64,000 nt of DNA, taken from the NCBI GenBank assembly GCA_040367435.1, contig BAABWY010000004.1, positions 186,001 to 250,000 on the forward strand. Direction: 5' to 3'. Positions 30,693 through 37,697 of this stretch are shown in pieces. Position 1 is the stretch's first letter; the number at the start of each line of letters is the position of its first letter. The translations under genes and the position numbers were made by a program. The stretch is from Hyphomicrobiales bacterium 4NK60-0047b. Its GTDB lineage: Bacteria; Pseudomonadota; Alphaproteobacteria; Rhizobiales; HXMU1428-3. Below the pieces are notes generated by a model. It was not told the DNA's origin. It worked only from the letters and a program-made list of their open reading frames with translations, and did no database searches.

Positions 30693-32243
30693 ATGAATGA
30701 AGTTCCAAATTCAGGGGGACGTAAATTTGCCCCAGAACTTTCATCCTTTCAAAAGCTCTATAAAAAGGGACAGTCTCAAGTTGTCTGGGCACGGCTTGTT
30801 GCTGATTTGGAAACGCCTGTTTCGGCCTTTTTAAAATTAACTGAGCGTTGCCCGCAAAATAGTTTTCTTTTTGAAAGTGTTGAAGGCGGTGCTGTTCGTG
30901 GGCGCTATTCTGCTATTGGTTTAAAACCGGACCTTATTTTTCAAAGCAATGGTAAATCTGCTGAAATTAATGAAAGCTGTCTTGAAGGGAAAACTGAATT
31001 TAGTCCTCTCCCCTCACCAACACTTGATGCGATGCGAGAGTTGCTTAAACGCTCTAAGATAGACTTACCAGATGAGTTGCCCCCTATGTCTGCTGGTGTG
31101 TTTGGCTATATGGCTTATGACACAGTTCGTTTGATGGAACATTTACCTGATGTGAATGAAGATGTTTTGGGTGTACCTGATAGTATTTTTGTTCGCCCTA
31201 CCATTATGGTCATTTTTGATGCTGTTAAAGATGAAATGGTTATGGTTCATAGGGTTGATGTGAAGGATGGTATTTCAGCTAAAAAGGCCTATCTAACTGC
31301 ACTTGAGAATTTAAAATCTGCAATTTTAGATTTGAATGCTCCTGTTCCCCACCAACAGGATTTTGATGAGGAAGATGGCTCTCTAGTGTTTGAAGAACCA
31401 TCTTCAAACACGCCACCTAAGAAATATAAAGAGATGGTCAAAAAGGCGCAGGACTATATCACTGAAGGTGATATCTTTCAGGTTGTTTTGAGCCAACGTT
31501 TTACGGCTCCGTTTTCATTGCCACCCTTCTCTCTTTATCGAGCTTTGCGCCGTACAAATCCTTCACCATTTCTTTATTATCTCAATTTCACTGATTTTTC
31601 GGTGATTGGATCTAGTCCTGAAATCTTGGTACGTGCACGTAATGAAGTTGTTACCGTTCGGCCGATTGCCGGAACGCGGCCACGCGGGAAAACTGAGACT
31701 GAAGATATCGCTCTTGGTGAGGATTTGTTAGCTGACCCTAAAGAATGTGCTGAGCATCTCATGTTGCTTGATTTAGGCCGCAATGATGTTGGCCGGGTTT
31801 CAAAAACGGGTAGCGTTACTGTGACGGATCAATTCTTTTTAGAAAGATATAGTCATGTGATGCACATTGTCTCGAATGTTGAGGGAAAGCTTGCATCTGA
31901 ATTTGATGAGATTGATGCCTTAATGGCAGGCTTTCCGGCAGGAACGGTATCTGGTGCACCAAAAGTACGGGCCATGGAAATTATTGATGAGTTAGAAGTA
32001 CATAAGCGCGGTATTTATGCCGGATGTGTTGGTTATTTTTCAGCGACTGGTGAAATGGATAGCTGTATTGTTTTGCGCACTGCAATTGTTAAGAATGGTG
32101 AAATGCATGTGCAGGCCGGGGCTGGTATTGTGGCAGACTCTGTTCCTCAATCTGAATTTGATGAATGTGTGAATAAGGCAAAAGCATTGTTTAGTGCCAG
32201 GACTGAGGCTCTAAGATTTGCTGGTATTAAGAGAAATACTTAA
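30693..32243 (+). CDS. trpE: Anthranilate synthase component I
   Basis: 516 aa, stand-alone TrpE without the TrpG fusion seen in many rhizobia. N-terminal tryptophan-feedback region (about 40-75, with FLFESVEGG in place of LLES), then the chorismate-binding domain: VVLSQRFTAPF, LNFTDFSVIGSSPE, RPIAGTRPRGKTE, LLADPKECAEHLMLLDLGRNDVGR in two segments, FPAGTVSGAPKVRAMEII and QAGAGIVADSVP. Makes anthranilate from chorismate with TrpG. GAGG about 9 nt before the ATG supports the start. A phosphohistidine-phosphatase gene lies between it and trpG. Confidence 0.97.
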   Translation: MNEVPNSGGRKFAPELSSFQKLYKKGQSQVVWARLVADLETPVSAFLKLTERCPQNSFLFESVEGGAVRGRYSAIGLKPDLIFQSNGKSAEINESCLEGKTEFSPLPSPTLDAMRELLKRSKIDLPDELPPMSAGVFGYMAYDTVRLMEHLPDVNEDVLGVPDSIFVRPTIMVIFDAVKDEMVMVHRVDVKDGISAKKAYLTALENLKSAILDLNAPVPHQQDFDEEDGSLVFEEPSSNTPPKKYKEMVKKAQDYITEGDIFQVVLSQRFTAPFSLPPFSLYRALRRTNPSPFLYYLNFTDFSVIGSSPEILVRARNEVVTVRPIAGTRPRGKTETEDIALGEDLLADPKECAEHLMLLDLGRNDVGRVSKTGSVTVTDQFFLERYSHVMHIVSNVEGKLASEFDEIDALMAGFPAGTVSGAPKVRAMEIIDELEVHKRGIYAGCVGYFSATGEMDSCIVLRTAIVKNGEMHVQAGAGIVADSVPQSEFDECVNKAKALFSARTEALRFAGIKRNT

Positions 32244-32291
32244 ACGCAAGGCTTACCCGGTTAATTGCATTTAAAATGCTGGAGGGTATTA

Positions 32292-32861
32292 ATGTTAGAC
32301 TTATATATTTTGCGGCATGCTAAATCGAGCTGGAAAGATGAGAGCCTAGAAGATTTTGATCGTCCACTGAATAAACGCGGGAAACTTAATGCGGCTTCCA
32401 TGGGGGAGTTTTTAAGTGGTTCTGTTATTCAACCTGACATGGTCCTATGCTCTACTGCAAAGCGGTGCAAACAAACGCTAAAGTTGTTGCTATCTAGCGG
32501 ATTTTCTCCTTCTCAACAGAAGTTCTTAGATCGTTTGTACCTTGCGCGTGCTGACGAAATAATGAACGAGATTCAAAGTTCATCAAATTTGATCTCTTCA
32601 CTAATGATTATCGGACATAATCCTGGTTTAGAGGATTTGGTGCAAAAGCTTATTAAAGACAAAACCAGCTCGGATTATTTATCTCTTCTTGATAAATTTC
32701 CAACATGTGCTTTTGCTCAGATACAGTTTAACAAAGATAATGGGCAGCTTAATAAAAATAAAGGGCAATTTAACACAGGTAGCTGGACGAAGCTTGCCCC
32801 TAACAGTGGAACCCTTTATTGTTATTTAACACCAAAACATCACCTTTCTCAGGACAACTAA
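32292..32861 (+). CDS. SixA-type histidine phosphatase superfamily protein
   Basis: 189 aa. The N-terminal [11 protein letters not shown] is the RHG/RHA catalytic motif of the histidine phosphatase superfamily; [23 protein letters not shown] and [13 protein letters not shown] carry the other catalytic Arg and His residues. SixA proteins dephosphorylate phosphohistidine, for example on phosphotransfer proteins. The C-terminal part has a short Asn/Lys/Gly/Gln tandem motif ([13 protein letters not shown]). The start is set at the ATG preceded by GGAGGG; the upstream extension is not used. It sits between trpE and trpG (5 bp before trpG), so it is co-transcribed with trp genes. Substrate unknown. 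Confidence 0.87.
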
Positions 32862-32866
32862 ATTTA

Positions 32867-33478
32867 ATGATCACACTTATCGATAATTACGACAGTTTCA
32901 CCTATAATCTGGTTCATTACATTGGAGATCTTGGTGTTACCTCAGATGTTGTACGTAATGATAAAATTACAGTCAACAAAGTTATTAAATCCAAACCTCA
33001 AGCTATTGTTCTCTCACCGGGGCCATGCACGCCTAATGAAGCAGGTATTTGTCTTGAGTTAATTAAGAAAGCAGCGGGTAAGTTTCCTATTTTTGGTGTC
33101 TGTCTGGGGCATCAGTCTATAGGCCAGGCTTTTGGTGGGACTGTTCTGAAAGCTCCGGAACTTATGCATGGTAAAACTTCAGAAATTATCCATGATAATC
33201 ATTCTGTTTTTAAAGGATTGCCCTCTCCTTTTACAGCAACAAGATATCATTCGCTTATTGTTGAAAGAGAGACGTTGCCAGATTGTTTAGAAATTACCGC
33301 AGAGAGTTCTGATGGGTTGATTATGGGGTTAGCTCATAAAGATTATCCAATTTTTGGTGTGCAATTTCATCCCGAAAGTATTGCGTCTGATTTTGGTCAT
33401 CAGATTTTAGCTAATTTTCTTGAAAGTGCTGGCCTTTCGGTTGATCATCAAATTTTAGAAAAACAGGCCAATGTATAA
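32867..33478 (+). CDS. trpG: Anthranilate synthase component II (glutamine amidotransferase)
   Basis: 203 aa from the ATG at 32867. Begins [18 protein letters not shown], as TrpG/PabA does. Class I amidotransferase triad: Cys in [16 protein letters not shown], His and Glu in [10 protein letters not shown]; the oxyanion region [12 protein letters not shown] is present. It feeds ammonia from glutamine to TrpE and may also serve aminodeoxychorismate synthase. The open frame extends upstream to 32819 but that would overlap the phosphatase by 43 bp; the chosen ATG follows its stop by 5 bp. Confidence 0.95.
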
Positions 33479-33579: not shown

Positions 33580-34596
33580 ATGGCGCGCATCGAAGATTAC
33601 ATTCAAATTGTATCAACGGGGACGAGTTTATCTCGCCAAGAAGCCTCTGAAGCTTTCGAGCTTCTTATGACAGGTCAAGCGGAACCAGCTCAAATTGGTG
33701 GTTTTCTCATGGCGCTTAGAGTGCGCGGAGAAACTGTTGATGAAATAACAGGTGCGGCTGAAGTGATGCGGGCTAAGGCAACCGGTGTTAAAGCGCCAGA
33801 TGGTGCCGTTGATACTTGCGGAACTGGCGGCGATAGTTCTGGTACATATAATATTTCCACTTGTAGTTCTTTTGTTGTGGCTGGTGCTGGTATTCCGGTT
33901 GCGAAACATGGGAATAAATCTATTTCATCCAAATCTGGATCTGCCGATGTGTTGGCCTCATTAGGTGTTAATTTAGATGTGACACCTGAACTGGTTGAAA
34001 CCTGTATTAAAGAAGCTAATATTGGATTTATGTTTGCACCAGCACATCACTCTGCTGTTCGCCATGTTGGCCCAGCTCGTGCTTCGCTTGGTGTGCGGAC
34101 AATTTTTAATTTATTAGGCCCTCTTTCTAACCCGGCTGGGGCAAAACGACAGGTTCTTGGTGTTTTCTCTGATGAATGGTTAGTACCACTAGCAGAAGTG
34201 CTGCGCACATTGGGTTCGACAAAACTCTGGGTAGTTCATGGTGCTGATGGGCTTGATGAATTATCAACTACTGGAGACACCAAAGTAGCGGCCCTTGATA
34301 ATGGTGAGATCACAACTTTTACCGTACACCCTGAGGACGTTGGATTACCACTTGCAAGCATGGATATGCTAAAAGGGGGTGATTCTGAAGTGAATGCTGC
34401 GGCCATTAAGGAAGTTTTAAAGGGTGAGATGGGACCATTCAGGGATATTGTTTTGCTAAATGCTGGCGCAGCTCTTGTTGTTAGTGGTCAAGTCAATGAT
34501 TTAAAAGAGGCAGTTGCACTGGCTGGTAAAGCCATTGATGACGGCAAAGCGCTTGAAGCATTGGATACACTGATTAAATTGACGAATGCTCAGTAA
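33580..34596 (+). CDS. trpD: Anthranilate phosphoribosyltransferase
   Basis: 338 aa. Phosphoribosyl-diphosphate binding [38 protein letters not shown], and [31 protein letters not shown] (two joined family blocks) are all seen. Second enzyme of the tryptophan branch. It follows trpG by 101 bp, a spacer with a short direct repeat TTAGTGCAT (about 33483 and 33498) but no hairpin. TrpC follows after 164 bp. Confidence 0.97.
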
Positions 34597-34760: not shown

Positions 34761-36434
34761 ATGAAAAATATGCTGGATCGAATTATTGCTCACAAAGCTA
34801 AAGAGGTGGCCAATGCCAAGAATATTTTACCTCTTTCAGAAATCGAGACACAAGCAAGGGCTGCAACAGCGCCACGCGGGTTTATAAAGTCAATTCAGAA
34901 ATTTCATAATGAAGGCAAGCCAGCACTGATTGCTGAGATTAAAAAAGCCAGTCCATCGAAAGGTCTTATCCGACCTGATTTTGATCCAGCTCATTTAGCT
35001 GACGCTTATGAAACAGGTGGTGCCGCCTGTATTTCAGTTTTAACTGATATTGCTTTTTTCCAAGGTCATCCGCAATATTTAAAAGAAGTCCGCACAGCAT
35101 CAACTTTGCCAGTTTTACGAAAAGACTTCATGATTGATACGTACCAGGTTGTGGAAGCGCGGGCTTGGGGTGCTGATTGTATTTTAGTGATTATGGCAGC
35201 TGTTGATGATGTGGTTGCTCAATCTATTACGAATATGGCGCGCAAGTGGGGAATGGATGTACTTATTGAAGTCCATAATCGCCAGGAATTAGAACGCGCG
35301 TTGAAATTGAATTCTGTTTTGATTGGTATTAACAACCGTAATTTGCAGACATTTGATATCACGTTAGAGACAACTGAAGGCTTGGCCCCGCTTATTCCTA
35401 AGGACCGTATTATTATCAGTGAAAGTGGCATTAGCACTCATGATGATTTGGTTAGACTTTCAAAGATTGGTGCGAATACTTTTCTTGTTGGTGAAACTTT
35501 GATGCGCAAGGAAAATGTTGAACTTGCAACAAAAGTTCTTCTTGGTACGGAGGCTGCTCCTGATTTTTTTCCTGAAGTGAAGGGAGGAGATGCGAATGTC
35601 AAAGACACAGCCGATAAGTCGACCTCGCTTCCTACCCCTTCACAAGATGATGCCAGTGTTCAATCAATAGATGAGAATAAGTTCAATGAAGAACTTCAAC
35701 AATCTAATGACACTTCTCTCCAGGCTGCGAATATTAAAATTCAAGATGTGGAGCTTTTAGGCGACAATTTTGAATCTGCGATTGAAGAGCTTGGTGCCTT
35801 GATTAACTCTGGTTCTGAAGCATCTACAGCTCCTATAACACAGAAACCAGAATCTGAAATTGAGCAGGATGCAACTCAATCGCCAATTGAACCCCACGAG
35901 CCGCAAAAAGCTAAAGGGAGCCCCATGGACCAAAGTGAGGCTCTGGGCAAACTATCTCATGTCAATGAAGCTGGTGCTGCTCATATGGTTGATATTTCTG
36001 AAAAAGGCGTCACTCAACGAGTTGCGACAGCAGAAGGGTTTGTTTCGATGCAGCCCGATACGCTTGCTCAAATCCAACAGAATGCGATGAAAAAGGGAGA
36101 CGTTTTAGCGACTGCTCGTATTGCTGGAATTATGGCCGCTAAAAAGACGTCTGATCTAATACCTTTATGTCACCCCTTGCCTGTTACCGGTGTAGAAGTG
36201 GATTTCACTCCTGTGACAGATCATCAAACGGGAATTTTAGTACAAGCAACTGTTAAGGTGGATGGAAAAACCGGTGTTGAGATGGAAGCATTAACAGCGG
36301 TGTCTGTATCATGCCTTACTATTTATGATATGGCAAAAGCGATTGATAAGGGGATGACTTTCTCTGGCGTTCGATTGATTGAAAAAACAGGCGGTAAGTC
36401 TGGTACGTACAGAGCACCTGATGCTGCTGAATAA
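34761..36434 (+). CDS. trpC-moaC: Fusion of indole-3-glycerol phosphate synthase (TrpC) and cyclic pyranopterin phosphate synthase (MoaC)
   Basis: 557 aa in a single frame. Residues 1-262 are Trp[46 protein letters not shown]. Residues 389-557 are Moa[66 protein letters not shown]. Between them lies an acidic, Ser/Gln/Asp-rich linker of about 125 residues with no known domain. In related genomes trpC and moaC are separate neighbours. An internal ATG at 35925 with AAAGGGAG 4 nt before it could yield free MoaC, so two products may be made. TrpC serves tryptophan and MoaC serves molybdenum cofactor synthesis; no metabolic link is known. Confidence 0.92.
35914..35927 (+). promoter_or_regulatory. 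Internal ribosome binding site and start codon for MoaC inside trpC-moaC
   Basis: AAAGGGAG ends at 35920, four bases before the in-frame ATG at 35925 (codon 389). Translation from here gives [17 protein letters not shown], which is a normal MoaC N-terminus of 169 residues. This is one of the better Shine-Dalgarno matches in the window. Whether it is used is inferred. Confidence 0.6.
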
Positions 36435-36479
36435 CTATTTTATTTTTTATCAATGTCATGAGTTAATTCGGAGAGTTTG

Positions 36480-37697
36480 ATGAGTTTAATTTCAGTTGCT
36501 GATGCCCAAGCCCGTATGATTGCTAAGGGACAGCTTATGGCAACTGAAAATTTGCCTTTGGAACTTTGTGCCGGGCGGGTTACTTCAGAAGATGTTTTGG
36601 CTAAGATTACTCAACCTCCATTTGATGCCTCAGCTATGGATGGTTATGCCGTTCGCTCAGTTGATTGTACATCGCTTCCTCAATCCTTTAAATTAATTGG
36701 TGAAAGTTCTGCTGGTCATCCATTTAGTGGGGAGCTTTCGGCTGGTAACGCTGTTCGTATTTTTACAGGGGCTGTTGTGCCATCTGGTGCTGATGCGATT
36801 GCGATACAAGAGGATTGTGATCGGCCTGATGATGAAAACGTTGTGGTAAAAGAGGTCTCCCCTCCAGGCAAATTTATTCGTGTTGCGGGTTATGACTTTC
36901 ATGAAGGTGATGAGCTTGTTACAAAAGGGACAACACTTGGATACAGGCATCTAGCATTGCTGGCATCTATGAATGTTGCTTCAGTTGAAGTTTACAAAAA
37001 ACCAAAAGTTGCCATTATCGCGACAGGTGATGAATTGGTTTCTCCTGGTGAAGTCTTATCGACGGGGCAAATAATTTCCTCTATTCCTTTTGGTATGAAG
37101 CATCTGCTAGAAAAGGCTGGTGCCGAGGCTCACTGTTTGGGTATTGCGAAAGATGATCTTCAAAGCCTTAGCGATATTTTATCGACTGCAAAAGATCCTC
37201 AAAATGAATTTGATATAATTGTTACTATTGGCGGGGCGTCTGTTGGCGACCATGATTTGGTGCAAGAGGCTTTGAAGCTAGCTGGTATGGAGCTTGATTT
37301 TTGGCGGATTGCTATGCGTCCAGGAAAGCCATTAATGGTTGGGTCTTTAAACAATCAAAGTATTGTTGGCGTACCTGGCAACCCAGTATCCGCTCTTATA
37401 TGTTCTGAGATTTTTGTGGTACCGCTTATTCGCTCGATGCTTGGTCATTCATCCCCAATTAAAGTGACAAGCCAAGCGGTCTTGCAAAATGAAGTTAGTT
37501 CTAATGGTCCACGAAAACACTATATGCGTAGTTTTTTCTGGGTTGATGATAAGGGCCAACAAAGAGTTAAATGCGTTGAGAATCAGGATAGTTCTTTACA
37601 GGCTACTTTTGCTTTCTCTAACTGTTTGATTGTTCGGGCCCCTCATTCTGACACTGCTAATCAAGGTGAGCTTGTTGATATTTATCCGCTTGATTAG
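36480..37697 (+). CDS. moeA: Molybdopterin molybdenumtransferase MoeA
   Basis: 405 aa. QPPFDASAMDGYAVR, IFTGAVVPSGADAIAIQEDC, the MoCF-domain motifs TGDELV and TIGGASVGDHD, and AMRPGKPLMVG with GVPGNPVSALI show MoeA. It inserts molybdate into adenylylated molybdopterin. It follows the MoaC part of trpC-moaC by 45 bp, so molybdenum cofactor genes are co-transcribed. Start at the ATG preceded by GGAGAG with 4-nt spacing; a TTG one codon earlier is unlikely. Confidence 0.96.
   Translation: MSLISVADAQARMIAKGQLMATENLPLELCAGRVTSEDVLAKITQPPFDASAMDGYAVRSVDCTSLPQSFKLIGESSAGHPFSGELSAGNAVRIFTGAVVPSGADAIAIQEDCDRPDDENVVVKEVSPPGKFIRVAGYDFHEGDELVTKGTTLGYRHLALLASMNVASVEVYKKPKVAIIATGDELVSPGEVLSTGQIISSIPFGMKHLLEKAGAEAHCLGIAKDDLQSLSDILSTAKDPQNEFDIIVTIGGASVGDHDLVQEALKLAGMELDFWRIAMRPGKPLMVGSLNNQSIVGVPGNPVSALICSEIFVVPLIRSMLGHSSPIKVTSQAVLQNEVSSNGPRKHYMRSFFWVDDKGQQRVKCVENQDSSLQATFAFSNCLIVRAPHSDTANQGELVDIYPLD

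Follow-up and report, generated by a model that had tools for sequence, protein, structure and literature searches.

A genus-wide TrpC-MoaC fusion with a conserved motif in its long acidic linker in uncultured Hyphomicrobiales

Introduction

Gene fusions are often taken as evidence that two enzymes cooperate. In Hyphomicrobiales bacterium 4NK60-0047b, a single open reading frame joins TrpC (indole-3-glycerol phosphate synthase, IGPS), an enzyme of tryptophan synthesis, to MoaC (cyclic pyranopterin monophosphate synthase), an enzyme of molybdenum cofactor synthesis. The two enzymes have no shared pathway. Is this frame a genuine gene, how could it have arisen, and is the linker between its two halves anything more than filler? 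The frame lies in a stretch of 64,000 nucleotides that was analyzed as a whole and is called the window below. The features discussed are collected in Table 1.

Table 1. Features of the fusion locus in the window and the fusion loci of a second family
Feature	Position	Strand	Basis or remark
trpE	30693..32243	+	Pfam Chorismate_bind, 7.5e-94
SixA-like histidine phosphatase gene, between trpE and trpG	32265-32861	+	Pfam His_Phos_1, 3.7e-9
trpG	32867..33478	+	Pfam GATase, 9.3e-64
trpD	33580..34596	+	Pfam Glycos_transf_3, 4e-92
TrpC-MoaC fusion frame	34761..36434	+	ATG to TAA, 557 aa
TrpC domain, residues 1-262	34761..35546	+	Pfam, NCBIfam, confident AlphaFold2 fold
Acidic linker, residues 263-397	35547..35951	+	Length, composition, AlphaFold2 pLDDT
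Conserved linker motif, residues 335-348, predicted amphipathic helix	35763..35804	+	Conservation, dN/dS, AlphaFold2
Possible species-specific internal MoaC start: GGAG (35917-35920), 4 nt, ATG (35925-35927, M389)	35917..35927	+	Sequence
MoaC domain, residues 398-557, plus stop codon	35952..36434	+	Pfam, alignment to solved MoaC chains
moeA, directly downstream of the fusion	36477..37697	+	Pfam MoeA_N, MoCF_biosynth, MoeA_C; ATG at 36480 likely
TrpC-MoaC fusions of family f117 (genomes G362, G450, G451, G453)	L141:819-2096; L151-L153; L156	- (L141)	

Gene Neighborhood and the Two Enzyme Domains

The fusion is preceded by trp genes and followed by moeA and lexA. The gene order trpD-trpC-moaC-moeA is widespread among unfused relatives, which agrees with the proposal of an earlier note on this DNA that adjacent genes without a shared pathway were fused. 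In Sargasso Sea data, all 25 moaC genes located close to trp genes come after trpC (PMC2395257). A homologue of the SixA-like phosphatase is found upstream of trpG in the genus of the window species and in many Hyphomicrobium loci; none was found in Devosia and Mesorhizobium loci, some of which may have too short a flank.

The frame encodes both enzymes in full, as had been read from the sequence before. The Pfam IGPS domain (PF00218) covers residues 5-259 (3e-95, profile positions 1-253 of 254), and the Pfam MoaC domain (PF01967) covers residues 409-545 (5.7e-57, profile positions 1-136 of 136). The NCBIfam equivalog model for TrpC (PRK00278.1-2) is matched with 410 bits against a cut-off of 348, and the MoaC model (TIGR00581) with 206 bits against 141.5. 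The bifunctional NCBIfam models PRK09427, PRK13802, PRK03604, PRK14499 and PRK14500 all score far under their curated cut-offs, with one half matched only. AlphaFold2, run with a 36-row alignment, folds both enzyme domains confidently, and residues 276-392 between them have a pLDDT below 50.

The signature and catalytic residues and segments of IGPS (E59-x-K61...SPSKG, K121, E170, N191, S222) are invariant across 8/8 fused proteins of the genus. In the MoaC half, the active-site segment YDMAKA aligns with YDMCKA of a solved MoaC chain, and LIPLCHPL and a second segment, of 12 residues, are kept. D523 and K526 of the window protein are the counterparts of Asp128 and Lys131 of E. coli MoaC. Each half is whole and very probably active. 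MoaA is detected in 7/8 genomes of the genus, the one lacking it being 78% complete, and TrpF in 7/8; no second copy of the TrpC or MoaC gene was found in the eight fused genomes. Catalytic segments are kept, further components of each pathway are encoded in the genus, and neither domain has a second copy, so both activities must come from the fusion protein, whether it stays in one piece or is cleaved.

Fixation of the Fusion in the Genus

The fusion was searched for in 61 genomes; the genus of the window species is represented by eight. The search among relatives suggested by the earlier note recovered the fused frame, free of internal stops, in all eight of them, the G005 copy being truncated within MoaC where its contig ends. 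Junctions outside the genus were read at about 25 loci from other families and about 70 loci from genome contigs and were checked by eye. In other genera of the order, every junction read has a stop or a frame change. Equal open-frame lengths hinted at a fusion in G023, G024, G036, G047 and others, where direct reading shows a stop between the genes; equal open-frame length alone is an unreliable sign of fusion.

The relatives are metagenome-derived genomes, and a sequencing or assembly error could in principle have erased a stop or frameshift that separates two genes. This explanation is refuted and retains practically no probability. The eight separate assemblies carry linkers of 95-139 codons, all in frame and with no stop, and the missed stop or frameshift that the earlier note had wanted checked is present in none of them. 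As these assemblies are separate and their synonymous sites are near saturation, such an error is ruled out. After shuffling of the linker bases, an open frame survives in just 0.01-2.5% of the trials, depending on the species.

The eight fused proteins group together with 100/100 support in the TrpC tree and in the MoaC tree. Both halves therefore share one history, and the fusion predates the radiation of the genus. TrpC-MoaC is a fixed, genus-wide, single-copy fusion of the bifunctional type in uncultured Hyphomicrobiales.

Origin of the Fusion

Among the nearest unfused relatives, the TGA stop of trpC often lies within an ATGA overlap with the start of moaC, and the two genes are in different frames. 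The domain ends are 17, 20, 23 or 26 nt apart, none of these distances being a multiple of three. The ATGA overlap fits translational coupling of the two genes. The earlier note had thought it probable that the fusion came from loss of the stop codon and the linker from the spacer, a derivation that is not supported for the window genus. Stop loss alone cannot yield the fusion because trpC and moaC are out of frame in the nearest unfused relatives, and the spacer cannot be the source of the linker because these relatives have none of useful length. To judge from these junctions, about 100 codons must have been added, by an insertion or by a series of indels, and the MoaC start was then lost. 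Most likely, a frame-changing insertion in an old, tightly spaced trpC-moaC junction created the fusion, and loss of the moaC start made it hard to reverse.

Wider junctions were also seen by eye in a few unfused relatives. At L070, L115 and L030/L039, trpC and moaC lie 396-552 nt apart, with what looks like an additional short gene between them; it resembles an acetyltransferase gene in L115 and a small membrane-protein gene in L030.

Independent Fusions in Another Family

A second family of the class, f117, likewise encodes TrpC-MoaC as one frame of about 425 aa, in three species of one genus (G362, G450, G451). The linker between the domain ends comprises 8-12 residues in these three genomes and about 10-20 when G453 is included. 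G453 belongs to a sister genus in which several species have trpC and moaC in frame with one stop between them; it reads TGG in place of the TGA of its sister species. Simple stop-loss fusion of trpC and moaC, as expected for the window by the earlier note, is seen here instead. In the trees of both halves, the f117 fusions stand apart from the window genus, and well-supported branches force three label changes. The simplest reading is that TrpC-MoaC fusions had at least two separate origins, one in the window genus and one in f117. The f117 fusion has the same two domains in the same order as the window fusion and differs from it by its short linker, the lack of the motif described below and its separate position in the trees. 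Occasional fusion is to be expected of genes spaced as closely as trpC and moaC, but the long tether with the motif is found only in the window genus.

The Linker and Its Conserved Motif

The linker comprises 135 aa between the aligned domains, close to the 125 residues estimated before, and is acidic as had been stated (28 D+E against 9 K+R). Across the eight species its length varies from 95 to 139 aa and its sequence changes fast. Beyond what the earlier note had seen, the linker is more than filler, since one motif within it evolves under purifying selection; the consensus of this motif in the alignment of the eight fused proteins is D[DN]F[QE]xA[VI]xELGA[LM]I. Eight of the 14 motif columns are invariant in the eight species, and no other linker column is. 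The hypergeometric probability of this clustering is 2.8e-7, or about 2e-5 allowing for the choice of window along the linker, to be read with the relatedness of the sequences and the anchoring of the alignment at the motif in mind.

In close pairs, dN/dS lies at about 0.03 (0.02-0.05) in TrpC and MoaC, at 0.05-0.13 in the motif and, where measurable, at 0.3-0.8 in the linker part C-terminal to it; these values rest on four close species among only eight sequences, whose deep pairs are near synonymous saturation. Purifying selection on the motif almost matches in strength that acting on TrpC and MoaC. The motif shows the local conservation within a disordered, fast-changing region that characterizes linear motifs.

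AlphaFold2 places a helix at the motif (residues 337-350 in the window protein, 312-321 in a distant member) with a pLDDT of about 30-40, and because of this low confidence the docking site of the helix cannot be read from the model. One face of the predicted helix carries F337, A340, I341, L344 and I348; its hydrophobic moment is 0.41-0.51, against a linker median of 0.24. Twelve positions in TrpC and four in MoaC are fixed only in the fused genus. Several of the TrpC positions fall in the N-terminal helix or near residues 99-110, and no docking patch could be mapped from the whole set. In the G001/G005 branch, a second helix-like stretch, LEQVAATMA[HK]AAK, lies directly before MoaC and is conserved between both species (L033 residues 348-365, encoded at 1092-2666 on the - strand, and L046).

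A motif profile run against the window genome matches only the fusion (8.7e-13). The next match has E = 3.8, so there is no second copy, and an origin shared with or copied from another protein of the genome was rejected. Within the genus only the fusion is found at significant E, the motif was found in none of 290 other genomes of the order, and no match at E 10 was obtained among PDB sequences of solved structures. A search of viral contigs found no relative. Mimicry of an ssrA degradation tag was rejected as well: the tag encoded by the genome, ANDNSAPVAQAA, has only DN in common with the motif. This tag belongs to an alpha-type tmRNA (L159:1526-1964, + strand, genome contig C1) and is unlike the alphaproteobacterial tags of the Caulobacter type, which have a DNF stretch.

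Proposed Function and Alternative Explanations

The reading preferred here, with a probability of about 0.62, is a bifunctional TrpC-MoaC enzyme with a disordered tether of about 100-140 residues whose motif is a protein-docking helix, the fusion having arisen between neighbors through an insertion with loss of the moaC start. A protein-binding role of the motif is, taken by itself, likely. MoaC is an oligomer (hexamer), and its oligomer could form a core bearing several TrpC units on flexible tethers. On binding a protein surface, the motif would take the form of an amphipathic helix; candidate surfaces are the protein's own TrpC or MoaC domain, a neighboring tether or an outside partner. The bound helix would determine how the particle is arranged, how stable it is or where it is located. 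It could further be supposed that the motif, as a signal for docking or assembly, brings the syntheses of tryptophan and molybdenum cofactor together in one particle. This is unlikely; if true, two pathways without a known connection would be physically coupled, for example through placement of the particle in the cell or through an effect of the state of one enzyme on the other.

The fusion could also be a chance join with the linker as a mere spacer, kept like a ratchet since the MoaC start was lost. The absence of a shared pathway speaks for such a neutral origin, as do the trpC-moaC adjacency, which is older than the fusion, and the freedom of most of the linker to change. The f117 fusions, with linkers of about 10-20 residues and no motif, and the single TGA to TGG difference in one species, indicate that this pair fuses easily. 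However, a pure spacer needs no constrained site, and the motif, the sole such site of the linker, is constrained nearly like the enzymes; the long linker is moreover retained in 8/8 species. Since one short helix has been kept almost unchanged, the join is probably more than an accident, and we consider the neutral explanation doubtful.

Two products could be made from the one frame, namely the full-length protein and a separate MoaC, arising from an internal start near 35925 or from cleavage of a floppy linker, which would be easily cut. In the window species the ATG at 35925 has GGAG 4 nt upstream; an ATG no more than 10 codons from MoaC is likewise present in G002, G001 and G005. Against this, G003, G006 and G007 have no usable start codon near the junction, and G004 has only a TTG without a Shine-Dalgarno sequence. 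No conserved internal MoaC start was found in the eight genomes, the ATG position being common only to the sister species G001 and G005, and the dissimilarity of the motif to the tmRNA tag does not favor degradation through it. Separate products are quite improbable, and the bifunctional protein with a docking helix remains the preferred reading.

Comparison with Known Systems

TrpC-TrpF (PRK09427) and other trp fusions likewise chain IGPS to an enzyme encoded beside it in the trp operon. TrpF performs the preceding step of the same pathway, whereas MoaC belongs to another pathway; the window fusion reaches 280 of the 380 bits required by the TrpC/TrpF model, with its TrpC part only. MoaC is also part of bifunctional chains in MoaC/MoaB (PRK03604), MoaC/MobA (PRK14500), MoaC/MOSC (PRK14499) and MoaC-MoaE. 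In these known fusions the partners mostly serve the molybdenum cofactor and the MoaC portion of the models is N-terminal, whereas in the window MoaC is C-terminal and its partner is TrpC. Repeated independent MoaC fusions are described in archaea (PMC11237513).

The accessible part of the Sargasso Sea metagenome paper (PMC2395257) reports TrpF-TruA and TrpE-PLPDE_IV fusions, which likewise join a trp enzyme of marine bacteria to a protein from beyond the classical trp pathway, with different partners, and that part contains no mention of TrpC-MoaC. No published TrpC-MoaC fusion was found in the literature searched, which covered few subscription papers, and no NCBIfam bifunctional model matches it.

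In its architecture the linker resembles FtsZ-type disordered linkers with a short linear motif, which likewise consist of a fast-changing tether with one short conserved helix-forming stretch. Unlike those, the window motif is a candidate binding element without a match among PDB sequences.

The adjacency of trpC and moaC and the fusion of operon neighbors are known; the conserved helix within a long TrpC-MoaC linker is new. A pathway link should not be read from a fusion alone. Neighbors of an old gene cluster that belong to unrelated pathways appear to have been fused at least twice, in one case by a plain short joint and in the other through a long tether carrying a conserved helix. Set side by side, the two types allow one to ask whether fusions start as accidents of gene order and gain a function only afterwards.
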